From positions 1 to 64,000 of the forward strand of contig JAGBNH010000107.1 in the NCBI GenBank assembly GCA_017634475.1: a stretch of DNA of 64,000 bases, written 5' to 3'. The notes beneath the pieces were generated by a model that saw only the letters and a program-made list of their open reading frames with translations, had not been told where the DNA came from and made no database searches. The position numbers were made by a program, and so were the translations under genes. This stretch comes from Eubacterium sp. GTDB lineage: Bacteria > Bacillota > Clostridia > Lachnospirales > Lachnospiraceae. This document shows, piece by piece, positions 56,572 to 64,000 of the stretch; within the stretch, counting starts at the first letter, position 1, and each line of letters starts with the position of its first letter.

Positions 56572-57642
<1,071 letters not shown>

Positions 57643-57701: not shown

Positions 57702-58178
57702 CTATCTTCTGGTCAGTCCGGTAAGTCCGGTGCGCACCAGCTCTTGTATCTCAAAGCCGTTAAGGAGCTCGATAAATGCATCTATCTTGGAGTTGTTGCC
57801 GGTGATCTCGATCATCAGTGTATCCGGAGATACATCCACGATCTTCGCACGGAATACATCGGTAATGGCAATGATGGCCTGACGCTGGTTCTGATCTGCC
57901 TTAACCTTGATCAGCACAAGCTCACGGCAAACGGAAGAACCATCCTCCAGCTCAACAACTTCCACCACATCCTCCAGCTTCACCAGCTGGTTCTTGATCT
58001 GGGAAAGAATACGGTCATCACCGCTGACGGCAACGGTCATCCGGGAATACTTGGGATTCTCCGTCACACCTACCGAAAGACTGTCTATATTATAGCCTCT
58101 GCGGCTGAACATTCCGGATACTCTTGAAAGCACGCCGGATGTATTGTCTACAAGCAATGATAATACCTTTTTCTTCAT
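57702..58178 (-). CDS. ilvN: acetolactate synthase small (regulatory) subunit
   Basis: The small subunit gives valine feedback control to acetolactate synthase. The 158-residue protein has the N-terminal ACT domain (LLVDNTSGVLSRVSGMFSRRGYNIDSL) and a C-terminal ACT-like domain with ITGNNSKIDAF. AAAGGAG precedes the ATG. The large subunit ilvB is not in the window. The promoter is strong and carries a duplicated 25-bp element; expression with ilvC is likely. Confidence 0.93.
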   Translation of the reverse strand: MKKKVLSLLVDNTSGVLSRVSGMFSRRGYNIDSLSVGVTENPKYSRMTVAVSGDDRILSQIKNQLVKLEDVVEVVELEDGSSVCRELVLIKVKADQNQRQAIIAITDVFRAKIVDVSPDTLMIEITGNNSKIDAFIELLNGFEIQELVRTGLTGLTRR

Positions 58179-58328: not shown

Positions 58329-58913
58329 TCATTCTTCATAGACAGAGTGATATCTTTCTTTCTCAGCTAATTCCGGGATGATCTCATTTTTGTATGCATC
58401 CTCATATCTCGTAACAACAGCACTATCGTCTGAAACCGGAACATTTGATTCCGGACCGGAAACAAGTAATGAACCATCAGACTGTGCATAGCAGAGAAAC
58501 ACATATTTTTTCCCGGTCTCAGGCATTTCATCATTTTCATATATATATATACGCTTTCCGTCCTGTGTGACACCGCCTTCCTTTACTATGTGGATTGGTT
58601 CATTCGTAATAAGCTTTCCTTTAATATTATCTTCAACCTGTACAGAGTAATCAGTATAAGGAAAACCTGCGGATTCAGTAGTAGGATGTCTATACCTTAC
58701 ACCATCGTAGGAGATCACTTTTCCAACAAATACGTAATCGCAGATACCTACTGCCTCTCTGGGATCATGAATATTATATACAAAGGATGCTGAAACACCA
58801 TACATTGGAAGTTTTCTCATTTCTTCTTCAGTTAATGGATGAGACATACAACCCGATAGAATGTTAACACACAACAACATAGCAACTATTCTGATAATAG
58901 TATTTTTCATCAT
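58329..58913 (-). CDS. AT-rich predicted lipoprotein (194 aa)
   Basis: A 194-residue protein with a short basic N-terminus, a hydrophobic core and a lipobox (LSGC, Cys at about 22), so it is probably membrane-anchored outside the cell. The mature domain of about 170 residues is beta-rich with DGKRIYIYENDEMPETGKKY. The family is not recognised. Base composition is lower in GC than the neighbours. It lies 10 bp after the metalloprotease gene, so the two are a unit. It might be an inhibitor or substrate of that protease; that is a guess from context. Confidence 0.8.
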   Translation of the reverse strand: MMKNTIIRIVAMLLCVNILSGCMSHPLTEEEMRKLPMYGVSASFVYNIHDPREAVGICDYVFVGKVISYDGVRYRHPTTESAGFPYTDYSVQVEDNIKGKLITNEPIHIVKEGGVTQDGKRIYIYENDEMPETGKKYVFLCYAQSDGSLLVSGPESNVPVSDDSAVVTRYEDAYKNEIIPELAEKERYHSVYEE

Positions 58914-58923
58914 TTATTACTCC

Positions 58924-59451
58924 TTAGTATTTATTATCATATGCATAATCATACGAATCCTTATCATCTTGTGATAATAAAATCAACGTACTATAGACAG
59001 ATGCTTTCCAATACATGATACTTGAAAGTTGATTTTGACCTTGATTATGTCCCAAACCCAAATGATGTCCCAATTCATGCGATGCAACATTTGTTTTTTG
59101 AATTGCATTCAACTTTTCCATTTTTTTTGTATTAAAATACATCGTCCCTTCATACGACTGACCTGCCCATCCATTAACATCACCCGTAACATCAATTACA
59201 TCTACATCCTGTATTGTTAATAGCGTGTCATGTCGGATTATTCCACTTTTGTAATTATTCCATCTCCCTGCCCCTGCAGCCACATAACTTATATATGCAC
59301 TACTTCCATCATAATCCAAATGTTTACCAGTATCAACACTGTCCCAATAATGTGGGTTGTTAAGATACGACGTCGCAAATGATCTCATGGAAATATTCAC
59401 TACTAAAACACACATAATCATGATACTAATAATAAACCTGTATTTATTTAT
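58924..59451 (-). CDS. secreted matrixin-type zinc metalloprotease (175 aa, probable AUA start)
   Basis: A small metalloprotease of the metzincin clan: the zinc site HELGHHLGLGH (HExxHxxGxxH) is followed by the Met-turn SSIMYW. The first ATG (59421) cuts through a hydrophobic stretch. Reading ten codons further gives NKYRFIISIMIMCVLVVNIS, a good signal peptide, starting at an ATA at 59451. AAAGGAG is 9 nt before it, whereas the ATG has none. AUA is rare as a start codon, so this could also be a recently lost ATG. The gene is AT-rich. It starts about 25 bp after metH and is followed by the lipoprotein gene. Confidence 0.8.
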   Translation of the reverse strand: MNKYRFIISIMIMCVLVVNISMRSFATSYLNNPHYWDSVDTGKHLDYDGSSAYISYVAAGAGRWNNYKSGIIRHDTLLTIQDVDVIDVTGDVNGWAGQSYEGTMYFNTKKMEKLNAIQKTNVASHELGHHLGLGHNQGQNQLSSIMYWKASVYSTLILLSQDDKDSYDYAYDNKY

Positions 59452-59475: not shown

Positions 59476-61911
59476 TCATTTCCCCAAAAGCCTGTCTACC
59501 AGCTTTACGCATTCGTTTGCGTCCTTCGAATAGCCATCTGCGTGGATCTCATCACAAAAGCTCTGGGAGATCACCGCTCCGCCGATGATGATCTTCGCCT
59601 TACATCCCTTTTCTTTGGCGGTTTCCACCACTTCCTTCATCTTCATCATGGTGGTGGTCATCAGGGCCGAGAGGCCGATGATATCCGCATGATGTTCCTC
59701 TGCCGCGGCAACGATGTCGTCCGCCGGAACATCCTTTCCCAGATCGATCACGGTATATCCGTAGTTTCTCAGCATCAGGCAGCAGAGATTCTTGCCGATC
59801 TCATGCACATCTCCCTCCACTGAAGCAAAGACAACCGTACCTTTAGGTTCGGAGGCCTCGTTGCTTCCCAGCATCGGTGCCAGGTACTCAATGGCGGTAT
59901 CCATGGCGTTTGCCCCGGAGATCAGCTGCGGAAGGAAGAACCGTTTCTCCTCAAAGAGCTCTCCCACTCGGGTAATGGCCGGGATCAGCTCCTCATCGAT
60001 GATGCTCCTGGGGGCGCGACCCGCCTCGAGAGCGGTCTTCACCTCGCCGATGATCTTACCCTTGCTGCCATTGATGACGCAGTCGTAAATGGGACTTACG
60101 GAAGGTTCCTTACCGGAACCGGCCTTGGGCGCTTCCCTGGGCGGTGCGCCCGCTCCCGTAGGGAGCGCCCGTACACGCTCCACATACAGCTTATCGGAAT
60201 CCTCCTTCGCAAGAAGCAGATCGGAGGCATAGGCCGCATTCATCAGCTGATCCTGTCCCGGATTGGCGATGGCCATGGTAAGCCCTCTGGCAATAGCCAT
60301 GGTAAGAAATGCACTGTTCACGTTGATCCGTTCCGGCAGACCGAAAGAAATGTTGGACAGACCGCAGATCGTGGGGATCTGAAGCACATCATGACAGTAG
60401 GAAATGGTATCCAGGGTCATGAGCGCTGCCCTGGGGTCCGCACCAACGGTGGAAACCAGACCGTCCACCACCAGATCCTCCCTGGCCAGCCCTTCCTCCA
60501 GGGCCATCTCCACCAGCCGGTCAACCCGGGCCTTTTTCTCCTCCAGATTTTCCGGCAGTCCCTCATCCGATACCGGAAGAAGGATACACATGGCGTTATA
60601 TTTCTTTGCAAGTTTCAGCAGCGGACGACATTTCACGCTTTCCAGAGAAATGGAATTGATCAGCGCACGTCCCGGATAGATCCGGAGGGCTGCTTCAATG
60701 ATATCCACATGGCTGGAATCGATACACAGGGGAAGACCGGTAAGGGAGGTAACCTCTTCGATCACCTTCAGCATCATTTCCTTCTCATCGATGCCGTTCA
60801 TTCCCATGTTAATGTCCAGGACATGAGCGTGTCCCTCTTCCTGGGCCACAGCCATCTCACTCACCAGACTGAGAGACCCTTCGCGAAGCTCTGCCTGGAG
60901 CTTCTTCTTACCCGTGGGGTTGATCCGCTCACCTACCACAAGGAACGGACCGTCCAGCCGGATCTCCTGCAGCTGACGCTCCGAGGTGAGCACCCTGACC
61001 GGAGTTTCCAACGGAGGAACAGGCTCCACTCCTCTTACTTTCTGCTTCATGGCGCGGATATGCTTCGGTGAGGAACCGCAGCAACCACCCACCAGATTCG
61101 CTCCCCGATCCACCAGTGAACGGATGCAGTCAGCGAAATACTGCGGGGTCATCTTATATACGGAGACTCCGTCCTCCAGCTCCGGCATACCGGCATTCGG
61201 CTTTGCAAAGACCGGAACCGTTGCATAGCGCTTCATCCGGGACACAAGCTCCCCCATTTCTTCCGGACCGGTGGAACAGTTTAAGCCCACTGCATCTGCA
61301 CCCAGGCCCTGCAGGACGATGACCGCAACCTCCGGCGGAGTACCGAATAAAGTTTTCCCGTCTTCATTAAAGGTCAGGCTCACCATGACCGGGATATCCT
61401 CTGAGATCTCCCTTACGGCCAGCAGCGCTGCCCTGCATTCCTGCAGGCTCATCATGGTCTCGATCACTATGAGATCCACGCCTGCGTCGATCAGAGCGCC
61501 CGCCTGCTCCTTATATACATCCACCAGCTCCTCGAAGGAAAGGTCCCCGATGGGACGAAGCTGACGGCCTGTCATGGTCATATCCCCGGCCACGTAACCG
61601 CGGCTGTTGCACCGGCGGACCGCTTCTTTGGAAAGAGCCACCAGCCTGCGGTTCATTTCCACTGTTTTGTCTTCAAGATGATATTCCCGGAGTTTGATCC
61701 GATTACAGGTAAATGTGGGGGAATAAAGGATGTTGGTTCCAGCTTTGAGAAATTCAACCTGCAGGTTGATGAGAGTTTCCGGATGCTCCAGAACCCAGAG
61801 CTCCGGGCAAACGCCCAGAGGCATGCCTGCGGCCATAAGATTTGTTCCCGTAGCTCCGTCGAGACAGAGGATACGGGAATCCAGAAGTTTTTTAAATTCT
61901 TGACGTTTCAT
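59476..61911 (-). CDS. metH: cobalamin-dependent methionine synthase, short form
   Basis: MetH transfers methyl from methyltetrahydrofolate to homocysteine through cobalamin. The 811-residue protein has the homocysteine domain (zinc cysteines in GLNCSTG and GGCCGSSP), the pterin domain (about 320-590), the B12 cap and the B12 domain with DVHEIGKN (DxHxxG). It ends after the B12 domain; the C-terminal AdoMet-binding reactivation domain of about 330 residues seen in E. coli is absent, as in many Firmicutes. Reactivation of oxidised cobalamin must come from elsewhere. It precedes the AT-rich protease pair. Confidence 0.94.
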   Translation of the reverse strand: MKRQEFKKLLDSRILCLDGATGTNLMAAGMPLGVCPELWVLEHPETLINLQVEFLKAGTNILYSPTFTCNRIKLREYHLEDKTVEMNRRLVALSKEAVRRCNSRGYVAGDMTMTGRQLRPIGDLSFEELVDVYKEQAGALIDAGVDLIVIETMMSLQECRAALLAVREISEDIPVMVSLTFNEDGKTLFGTPPEVAVIVLQGLGADAVGLNCSTGPEEMGELVSRMKRYATVPVFAKPNAGMPELEDGVSVYKMTPQYFADCIRSLVDRGANLVGGCCGSSPKHIRAMKQKVRGVEPVPPLETPVRVLTSERQLQEIRLDGPFLVVGERINPTGKKKLQAELREGSLSLVSEMAVAQEEGHAHVLDINMGMNGIDEKEMMLKVIEEVTSLTGLPLCIDSSHVDIIEAALRIYPGRALINSISLESVKCRPLLKLAKKYNAMCILLPVSDEGLPENLEEKKARVDRLVEMALEEGLAREDLVVDGLVSTVGADPRAALMTLDTISYCHDVLQIPTICGLSNISFGLPERINVNSAFLTMAIARGLTMAIANPGQDQLMNAAYASDLLLAKEDSDKLYVERVRALPTGAGAPPREAPKAGSGKEPSVSPIYDCVINGSKGKIIGEVKTALEAGRAPRSIIDEELIPAITRVGELFEEKRFFLPQLISGANAMDTAIEYLAPMLGSNEASEPKGTVVFASVEGDVHEIGKNLCCLMLRNYGYTVIDLGKDVPADDIVAAAEEHHADIIGLSALMTTTMMKMKEVVETAKEKGCKAKIIIGGAVISQSFCDEIHADGYSKDANECVKLVDRLLGK

Positions 61912-61987: not shown

Positions 61988-63346
61988 TCATTTCAGACTC
62001 TCGATATACGCCGTATCGGCGATCCATGGTCCATGATCCGCTGCATAGGTGGCCAGCTCGTCACATCGTTCGTTCATGGGATTTCCGGCGTGTCCCTTCA
62101 CCCAGTGAAAGGTCACCTGATGACTCTCCATGACAAAAAGGAGCTTCTTCCAGAGATCCACATTTTTCACCGGTTCCTTACCGCGCATCCAGTTATTCCG
62201 GATCCAGTTCTCCAGCCATTTCTTTTCAAAGGAATTGACCACATACTGGGAATCGGAGTATACATCCACGATGCAGGGATCCTTCAGGAATTCCAGCCCT
62301 GCGATCACCGCCATCAGCTCCATCCGGTTATTTGTGGTCTTCTGGTAGCCCTGGGAGAGCTCCCGTATCACTTCCTTTGAATCCGCATCCATCAGTACGG
62401 ATCCGTAACCTCCCGGTCCATCCGGATTGCTCCTGGCGGAACCATCCGTATAGAGGAGGACTTTTTTCTTCTGTATGGCAGAAGCCTCCTTCTTCTCCAC
62501 CGACGGCTCCGTAACAGGTGCATCACCTGCAGTCTGCCCGATCAGCTGAAGGGCTCTATGCACCAGCCGGAGCAGACGGTCCGACGCCTCGGCCGCTGCG
62601 ATTTTTACCTCTTCATGACTGAGCTTACCTTCGCCCAATCCCGCTGCCGGATTCGTGATGCAGGATACGGCATGGACCTTCAGCTTCAGCGCATGAGCCA
62701 TGGCCGCTTCCACCGTAGTGCTCATTCCCACTGCATCCGCACCCATGGTACGATACATCCGGATCTCTGCCGGAGTTTCGTAACCCGGTCCCGTGGTCTG
62801 CAGATAGATTCCCTGCTCAACCTGGATCTGTTCCTGTTCGGCAGCACGGCGAAGGATCTCTGTGGTATAGATCCCGGACATGTCCACAAACTGTGTACCG
62901 CCGTAATCCTCAACCGGGATCCCGCCAAAGGGGGACGGAACAAAGGAACTGATATGATCCTCCACGATCATCAGTGTTCCGGGCCTAAAGCCTGCCCGTA
63001 TGCCGCCGGCGGCATTTGTCAGGATCAGGTGCTCCACACCCAGGCGTTTCAGGAAGCGTACAGGATAGGTTACCTGCTGCATGGAATAGCCTTCATAGTA
63101 ATGCACACGGCCCTTCATGCATACCACCGGTACGCCGTCCACCTTTCCGAAGATCAGAGAGCCTTCATGTCCCTCCACCGTGGATACCGGAAATCCGGAA
63201 AGCCTGGCATAAGGGATCACCACCGGGTCTTCTATATCATCCGCCAGCTTTCCCAGACCGGAGCCCAGGACGATGGCTGCCAGAGGTTTGATCCTCACTG
63301 CCTTTAATAATTCATCACAGTCCAAAAAACTGCTGTTTTCTATCAT
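61988..63346 (-). CDS. fusion protein: purine nucleoside phosphorylase + ribonuclease HI
   Basis: A 452-residue protein with two complete enzymes. Residues 1-270 are a trimeric-type purine nucleoside phosphorylase: phosphate loop GSGLGKL (28-34), His82 in RVHYYEG, Glu190 in GYETPAE, Met208 in VGMSTT and Asn232 in ITNPAAG, the guanine/hypoxanthine set. After a linker of about 25 residues rich in Glu, Ala and Lys, residues 293-440 are RNase HI with Asp301 (YTDGSA), Glu343 (NNRMEL), Asp365 (YSDSQ), His419 (KGHAG) and Asp429 (CDELA). The spacing Asp365-His419-Asp429 matches E. coli RNase HI. Both halves should be active. The ATG at 63346 has AAGGA 8 nt upstream and overlaps the L,D-transpeptidase gene by 32 bp. 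Confidence 0.93.
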   Translation of the reverse strand: MIENSSFLDCDELLKAVRIKPLAAIVLGSGLGKLADDIEDPVVIPYARLSGFPVSTVEGHEGSLIFGKVDGVPVVCMKGRVHYYEGYSMQQVTYPVRFLKRLGVEHLILTNAAGGIRAGFRPGTLMIVEDHISSFVPSPFGGIPVEDYGGTQFVDMSGIYTTEILRRAAEQEQIQVEQGIYLQTTGPGYETPAEIRMYRTMGADAVGMSTTVEAAMAHALKLKVHAVSCITNPAAGLGEGKLSHEEVKIAAAEASDRLLRLVHRALQLIGQTAGDAPVTEPSVEKKEASAIQKKKVLLYTDGSARSNPDGPGGYGSVLMDADSKEVIRELSQGYQKTTNNRMELMAVIAGLEFLKDPCIVDVYSDSQYVVNSFEKKWLENWIRNNWMRGKEPVKNVDLWKKLLFVMESHQVTFHWVKGHAGNPMNERCDELATYAADHGPWIADTAYIESLK

Positions 63347-64000
63347 CGATCCTGTCCTTTTCATCCACCATGTATTTCGAGTTTCTCCAGTAACAGATCA
63401 CCGGCATATGCTTGTATCCGTACTCATAAACCGTCTGGGCCATCTGGTACTCCAGATTGACACATCCATGAGACCCTCTGGTCTTGAACAGCTCTCCGCC
63501 GAACTTGGACTGCCAGCTGGCATCATGAAGTCCGATCCCGCCGTTAAAGGGCATCCAGTAATCCACATGGGAAGCATAACCGGGGCCTCGCAGGATACAA
63601 TCCCTGTACAGACCGTTAAGTACATAAAATCCGCCCGGCGTATCATTTCCCCGGGAAGGAAGTCCGGAAATGATATCACAATCCAGCAGTAATCCGCCGT
63701 CCTTAATGAAGTAGGCCCTCTGATTGGTGAGATCCACTTCCACATAGGTGGTCCCGATATCCGAACCATCCACCGTATAGGCGTAGGCCCGATTGGAGAA
63801 AACCGGCTCCCGGATAAAGCTGTTAAATCTGCTGATATCCCGGTAGAGCTGCCTGGTCTCCTCTTCCTGATCGATCTGCCAGCCGATCTTATCGGAGGTG
63901 AGCTTCACCTTCTTGCCATCATGGGTTTTGAAAATGCGCTCCGTACCGAAGGTGTCATGCTTTGCTGCGAACTTCTCCACAAATGCGGCAACCTTCTTCA
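63315..64000 (-). CDS. L,D-transpeptidase (YkuD family), 5' end beyond window
   Basis: The reading frame continues to the window edge, so the N-terminus is missing; at least 227 residues are present. They show a peptidoglycan-binding-like segment (about the first 45 visible residues, THDGKKVKLTSDKIGWQID) and the YkuD catalytic domain with His in GLHDASW and the catalytic motif SHGCVNL. Such enzymes make 3-3 cross-links in peptidoglycan or anchor proteins to it. A GTG at 63980 could be an internal start, but the coding frame is open beyond it. It overlaps the PNP-RNase H gene by 32 bp. Confidence 0.9.
   Translation of the reverse strand, partial: KKVAAFVEKFAAKHDTFGTERIFKTHDGKKVKLTSDKIGWQIDQEEETRQLYRDISRFNSFIREPVFSNRAYAYTVDGSDIGTTYVEVDLTNQRAYFIKDGGLLLDCDIISGLPSRGNDTPGGFYVLNGLYRDCILRGPGYASHVDYWMPFNGGIGLHDASWQSKFGGELFKTRGSHGCVNLEYQMAQTVYEYGYKHMPVICYWRNSKYMVDEKDRIDDRKQQFFGL

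Follow-up and report, generated by a model that had tools for sequence, protein, structure and literature searches.

An in-frame fusion of purine nucleoside phosphorylase and RNase HI in a Lachnospiraceae genome, a rare architecture of probably repeated origin

Fused forms of RNase H have been described before. Part of the text of a 2007 article on RNase H evolution mentions a fusion to acid phosphatase as well as dsRHbd fusions (PMC1950709). For the mycobacterial RNase HI-CobC fusion, passages of another article describe conserved domains joined by a variable linker, a pattern similar to the one reported here; its authors found the two domains to be functionally dissociated in vivo and considered the fusion most probably fixed by drift (PMC7466739). 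No paper on a fusion of purine nucleoside phosphorylase (PNP) to RNase HI was found in the open-access literature searched, a coverage outside which most subscription journals lie. This is in keeping with the original prediction, which knew of no characterised fusion of this type. A term search of the main text of a 2016 survey of metabolic fusions (PMC4921024) returned neither 'nucleoside phosphorylase' nor 'ribonuclease H'.

Here we analysed a 64,000-nucleotide stretch of a Eubacterium sp. contig (the window), which carries such a fusion. Both of its domains are ordinary; what is new is the architecture and its likely repeated origin.

Architecture of the fused gene and its protein

The window contains a single gene encoding PNP followed by RNase HI (Table 1). 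The fusion had been predicted at positions 61988 to 63346 and these coordinates proved correct. The gene is encoded on the minus strand, stops interrupt the plus-strand translation of the same interval, and both halves score above curated cut-offs. The enclosing open reading frame runs from 61988 to 63364 (minus). Its ATG at 63346 is the likely start codon, since it is directly preceded by the Shine-Dalgarno-like AGGACAGG; an alternative in-frame ATG at 63364 would give a protein of 458 aa. The same architecture is found in three separate database proteins, P0002, P0003 and P0004, at 88, 64 and 63% identity, and is thus not an assembly join peculiar to this contig. The assembly of the window's genome is fragmented and 81% complete, and a sequencing or assembly artefact might have joined two genes in it, but these three proteins already contradict that explanation, the linker has an open frame and varies from one fused protein to another, and we regard an artefact as extremely improbable. 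The PNP-RNase HI fusion is real, and the objection of a frameshift or assembly join, raised in the original prediction itself, fails.

Table 1. Features of the fused gene and its surroundings in the window
Feature	Position	Strand	Details	Basis
Fused CDS, PNP-linker-RNase HI	63346..61988	minus	452 aa; stop included; no frame break	ORF list, Pfam, NCBIfam
PNP domain (PF01048)	62549..63277	minus	residues 24-266; 165.5 bits, over Pfam cut-off	Pfam
Variable linker, predicted disordered	62474..62542	minus	residues 269-291, about 23 residues; pLDDT <50 at 275-290	
RNase HI domain (PF00075)	62039..62467	minus	residues 294-436; 139.9 bits, over Pfam cut-off	Pfam
Shine-Dalgarno-like AGGACAGG	63351..63358	minus	before ATG at 63346; putative function	sequence
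Upstream gene, L,D-transpeptidase (YkuD)	63315..63980	minus	overlaps fused CDS by 32 nt	
Downstream gene, methionine-synthase-type protein	59476..61911	minus	homocysteine S-methyltransferase, pterin-binding, B12-binding	
ilvN-like acetolactate synthase small subunit	57702..58178	minus	recurrent neighbour	
ilvC-like ketol-acid reductoisomerase	56572..57594	minus	recurrent neighbour	

The PNP half scores above the cut-off of the NCBIfam equivalog for trimeric PNP (PRK08202; 316.6 bits against 218) and below the stricter cut-off for the inosine/guanosine-specific PNPH (TIGR01700; 276.5 bits against 293.35). H82, E190, M208 and N232, which we take to be the PNP catalytic or substrate residues, are all present. 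A Foldseek search with the window protein listed 50 matches, all PNP or xanthosine phosphorylase, with the C. perfringens PNP 8swu first. In line with the original proposal of a trimerising PNP, this half belongs to a family whose solved members we take to be trimers, and the fused protein is predicted to form a PNP homotrimer. The window's assembly holds a second PF01048 protein, of 225 aa, on contig C56. Another protein, P0092 (578 aa), appears by eye to be a tandem PNP-PNP with two PNP-like halves in one chain.

The RNase HI half scores 184.5 bits against the NCBIfam equivalog PRK00203, with a cut-off of 160. It contains D301, E343, D365 and D429, presumably the D-E-D-D metal site, and H419, presumably the catalytic histidine. 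All nine catalytic residues had been said to be kept, and each named letter was found at its position. Conservation extends to the 91 full-length fused proteins, which take in the window's own cluster P0001: the nine positions are kept in 91/91, with the single exception of a gap at N232 in P0073 (90/91). The Pfam scan found neither a Cauli_VI domain (PF01693) nor a phosphatase domain in the window protein. Against the bifunctional RNase HI-acid phosphatase model PRK07238 the protein reaches 48.7 bits, below the cut-off of 326, and it is the RNase H part that matches best.

The linker between the halves was measured at about 23 residues in a single frame, close to the estimate of about 25 made beforehand. 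AlphaFold2, run on a 20-row alignment, returned a mean pLDDT of 83.2 and a pTM of 0.58, and the model suggests two folded units connected by a flexible joint. Between the window protein and P0002, identity is 244/268 in PNP and 147/161 in RNase HI (91% in each domain) and 8/23 in the linker. By domain bounds, linkers span 0 to 37 residues in the 91 fused proteins longer than 400 aa. The aligned sequences point to conservation of both enzymes and little constraint on the joint, with a linker that appears to diverge far faster than the domains.

Distribution and neighbourhood of punA and rnhA

The fusion is rare. Both Pfam domains occur in 92 of the best 120 rows of the protein search (P0001 to P0091 and the partial P0093), and the 91 fused proteins longer than 400 aa form 18 groups at about 80% identity. 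Five overlapping draws of 51 to 397 genomes, each including the window's genome, were searched, and in all five the window's genome was the only one with a listed match spanning both domains. Among the matches listed, this amounts to 1/51 genomes in the genus, 1/397 in the family, 1/392 in the order and 1/391 in the class, and likewise to 1/397 in the family draw for which a completeness of at least 98% was requested. No fused gene was found in named genomes among the best 80 of 595 confirmed loci, and no hidden fusion came to light when twelve loci, chosen for a long match or a long open frame, were frame-checked. In a scan of viral contigs, the 80 matches listed, of 103, all start at query residue 248 or later, covering essentially the RNase H half. 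The original prediction had named consistently separate genes in close relatives as a finding that would count against it, and here the outcome was divided. Among the matches listed, no sampled congener other than the window's genome is fused (1/51), but the close homologues P0002 to P0004 are fused. One candidate, L168 from an uncultured Coprococcus, was rejected as a fusion: the locus search had joined two segments, and its frames are separate and slightly overlapping.

Where the two genes are neighbours, their order is constant. Among the best 80 of 595 named loci, 18 have a same-strand rnhA downstream of punA and none has rnhA upstream; for the 53 of these loci with at least 5 kb flanking punA on each side, the counts are 16 and 0. 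In a number of Lachnospiraceae loci punA, followed by rnhA, sits in a salvage-type cluster with a cytidine deaminase, an amidohydrolase, a MutS-domain protein and sometimes a nucleoside-binding-type (Bmp) lipoprotein. The MutS-type gene in several of these loci encodes a MutS-domain-V protein (e.g. L114:8714-10399).

The window's neighbourhood differs from this cluster and reads Ldt-X-metH-ilvN-ilvC, where X is the fusion, the only fused gene whose DNA neighbourhood was examined. In L224 and L168, X is an adjoining unfused punA and rnhA, whose frames share about 10 nt in L168. A third unfused adjoining pair, L225, has a spoIVA-like gene as its neighbour instead. In 11 congener loci X consists of rnhA alone; of these, two lack Ldt in the stretch, one lacks metH and one is on a contig ending inside metH. 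X is punA alone in seven congeners (three without metH and four without ilvC in the stretch) as well as in L117 and L156. The congener PNP loci L240, L246 and L247 do not have this neighbourhood. The named records that share it, L117, L156 and L168 (a Coprococcus assembly), are all Lachnospiraceae, so the window probably comes from this family too.

Further genes were seen around the window's slot. An AIM24-family protein (PF01987; 55521-56348, minus) adjoins ilvC, and two small ORFs (58329-59421, minus) separate metH from ilvN, one of them carrying HELGHHLGLGHNQ, a motif we take to be metallopeptidase-like. This interval looks like a lineage-specific insertion, because the metH-ilvN gap is only about 60-170 nt in those congener slot loci for which metH and ilvN could both be located.

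In most genomes of the genus draw (n = 51) just one gene of the pair gives a strong match. For RNase HI (at least 235 bits) this is the case in 16 genomes and for PNP (at least 365 bits) in 29; both genes are present unfused in only two (G426 and G441), neither gives a strong match in seven, and the window's genome carries the fusion. One of the seven, G412, has a partial PNP of 135 bits. No PNP debris was found beside rnhA in the 11 RNase-HI-only slot loci, where weak matches were off the slot, unrelated to it or absent. In L275 (G416:C38:50500-53500), from a congener retaining only rnhA at the slot, a PNP relic lies at about 1511-1716; its middle is missing, so that the matches to residues 67-87 and 220-267 adjoin each other.

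Such patterns bear on whether the fusion was selected for functional coupling, which would link the removal of R-loops or primers to purine recovery, as the original prediction proposed. Coupling would fit the recurrence of punA and rnhA as near neighbours (16/53 loci) and as fusions in several lineages, always in one order, and the deaminase, amidohydrolase and lipoprotein genes of the unfused clusters would supply a salvage setting. The genus draw argues against it, with so few genomes keeping both genes, as does the lack of conservation in the linker. RNase HI releases RNA oligonucleotides and the substrate of PNP is free nucleosides, so the two steps would not be consecutive. Selected coupling is therefore unlikely in our view, and channelling of products between the halves is unlikely on the same chemistry.

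The fusion is the sole PF00075 match in the window's assembly, and no RNase HII was found in that assembly, which is 81% complete. A dependence of the cell on the fusion for RNase H was considered and set aside, as the missing RNase HII is no evidence for it. All eight rnhA-bearing congeners examined (8 of 16) have rnhB on the contig and strand that carry rnhA, about 9-11 kb upstream of it. Beyond the start of the fused gene the window's contig continues for about 5.5 kb, to 68,856, and because it stops short of the rnhB distance the missing RNase HII is uninformative.

In the 16 PNP-bearing congeners examined PF00075 matches are weak (<58 bits), and Cauli_VI precedes RNase H in both PNP-only congener loci scanned, two of three retrieved. 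The PNP trimer might be mainly a scaffold, giving three-fold attachment to RNA-DNA hybrids to an RNase HI without a hybrid-binding domain of its own. The absence of Cauli_VI from the fused protein, set beside its presence in the RNase H of those two congeners, is consistent with this, as is a PNP half from a family regarded as trimeric. However, RNase HI of the E. coli type functions unaided as a monomer, and the fully kept PNP active site argues against a role as scaffold only. This explanation seems to us quite unlikely.

Two congeners show another type of PNP-RNase H neighbourhood, in which a divergent RNase H on the punA strand precedes punA by about 1 kb (G401:C1, about 1023380-1025488; G428:C14, about 65868-68001).

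Number of fusion origins

For the gene trees, the fused proteins were divided into group A (the window and P0001-P0004), group B (seven representatives, P0006 and kin), group C (P0084-P0091, six representatives), group D (P0005 and P0068) and group E (P0081). Three trees and three sets of pair tests were run in IQ-TREE at quick settings, with the pairs named after the first trees had been seen. Constraining all fused proteins to a single clade was rejected for RNase HI (tree of 68 rows, p = 1.75e-6) and likewise for PNP (tree of 72 rows, p = 0.0049). A second, better sampled RNase HI tree (54 rows), to which relatives of group C RNase HI had been added, rejected a common origin by the AU test for B-C (2.3e-23), A-C (5.6e-6), A-E (1.9e-4) and A-B (3.3e-4), and weakly for B-E (0.023). 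The first RNase HI tree had already given poor values for A-E (0.0099) and A-B (0.012), while A-D (0.33), D-E (0.48), B-D (0.56), B-E (0.069) and B-C (0.72) were unrejected, the B-C value predating the addition of group C relatives. The PNP tree left a common origin unrejected for A-E (0.75), A-B (0.31) and D-E (0.41), and placed groups A and D together with a support of 53.7. P0081, fused with zero linker, and L168, with its frame overlap of some 10 nt, group as sisters in each of the three trees (95, 97 and 97) and are the closest before-and-after pair.

A single ancient fusion followed by many splits or losses would account for the RNase-HI-only congeners that fall near or among group A in the RNase HI trees (supports 87; 85-86), and is compatible with group A forming one clade in the PNP tree (100) and with the completed PNP pair tests, which reject nothing. 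Against it stand the rejection of one clade for the whole set in both trees and the four pairs rejected outright in the RNase HI tree. Moreover, the unfused RNase HI proteins nearest those of group C are 77-79% identical to them, and one is named Oscillospiraceae. We consider a single ancient fusion highly improbable. Judging from these sequences, at least three origins (A, B and C), and probably about five, gave rise to fusions of one gene order. The count leans mainly on the RNase HI half, because the pair tests completed in the PNP tree (A-E, A-B and D-E) reject no common origin.

Proposed origin and comparison with known systems

Taken together, our results favour, with a probability of roughly 0.6, a reading in which one frame encodes a complete PNP, a short variable linker and a complete RNase HI, likely arose by loss of a stop between neighbouring punA and rnhA, and yields a predicted PNP homotrimer with three tethered, independently acting RNase HI units. 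The two genes would start as same-strand neighbours with rnhA downstream, and loss of the stop between them would leave a single frame. The PNP trimer would tolerate a C-terminal RNase HI passenger on a flexible linker, and the product would be a tethered, co-produced pair requiring no catalytic channel. Joining of neighbouring genes thus explains the architecture without coupling. Both halves are predicted to be active, and the two likely work side by side and not as one reaction line. Any benefit may lie in co-production in a fixed ratio and joint retention, in preference to RNA fragments being channelled to purine salvage.

Recurrence in one order leaves room for co-production, for joint retention in one-gene lineages or for avidity, and could itself mean selection for coupling. 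A bolder proposal, that in at least three clostridial lineages separate, independent captures of RNase HI turned the PNP trimer into a three-armed RNase H in which avidity replaces a hybrid-binding domain and R-loop clearance is tied to the purine state of the cell, we hold to be very doubtful. The recurrent joining of a salvage enzyme to a genome-maintenance nuclease nevertheless offers a natural replicate set. Unfused neighbours, the barely overlapping L168, the linkerless P0081 and the long-linker fusions can be used to test whether bacterial fusions report coupling or follow gene order. There is also a warning for annotation: the source of the fused P0085 calls it purine-nucleoside phosphorylase and nothing more, and with such naming a genome can seem to be without rnhA.

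Compared with trimeric (low-molecular-mass) PNP (PRK08202/TIGR01697), the window protein has a full domain over these NCBIfam cut-offs with its catalytic residues kept, and its nearest solved relative among the fold matches listed, 8swu chain A (C. perfringens PNP), is 43% identical to it. It differs in adding a C-terminal RNase HI and in falling under the TIGR01700 cut-off. The other half aligns over its full length with solved chains of bacterial RNase HI (PRK00203; E. coli RnhA), but it is not free-standing and has NPDGPGG, one residue more than the NPGPGG of those chains. RNase H1 with Cauli_VI (dsRHbd), which occurs in two window congeners, is similar in bearing an extra N-terminal domain, but the window protein is without Cauli_VI. 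The actinobacterial RNase HI-acid phosphatase/CobC proteins (Rv2228c, MSMEG_4305 and SCO2299) likewise combine RNase HI, a variable linker and a small-molecule enzyme, with both domains conserved, according to part of the article describing them (PMC7466739). There, the partner is CobC and RNase HI is N-terminal, whereas here the partner is PNP and RNase HI is C-terminal. By analogy, and as far as those passages go, the RNase HI-CobC fusion may serve as a precedent for separable halves (PMC7466739).
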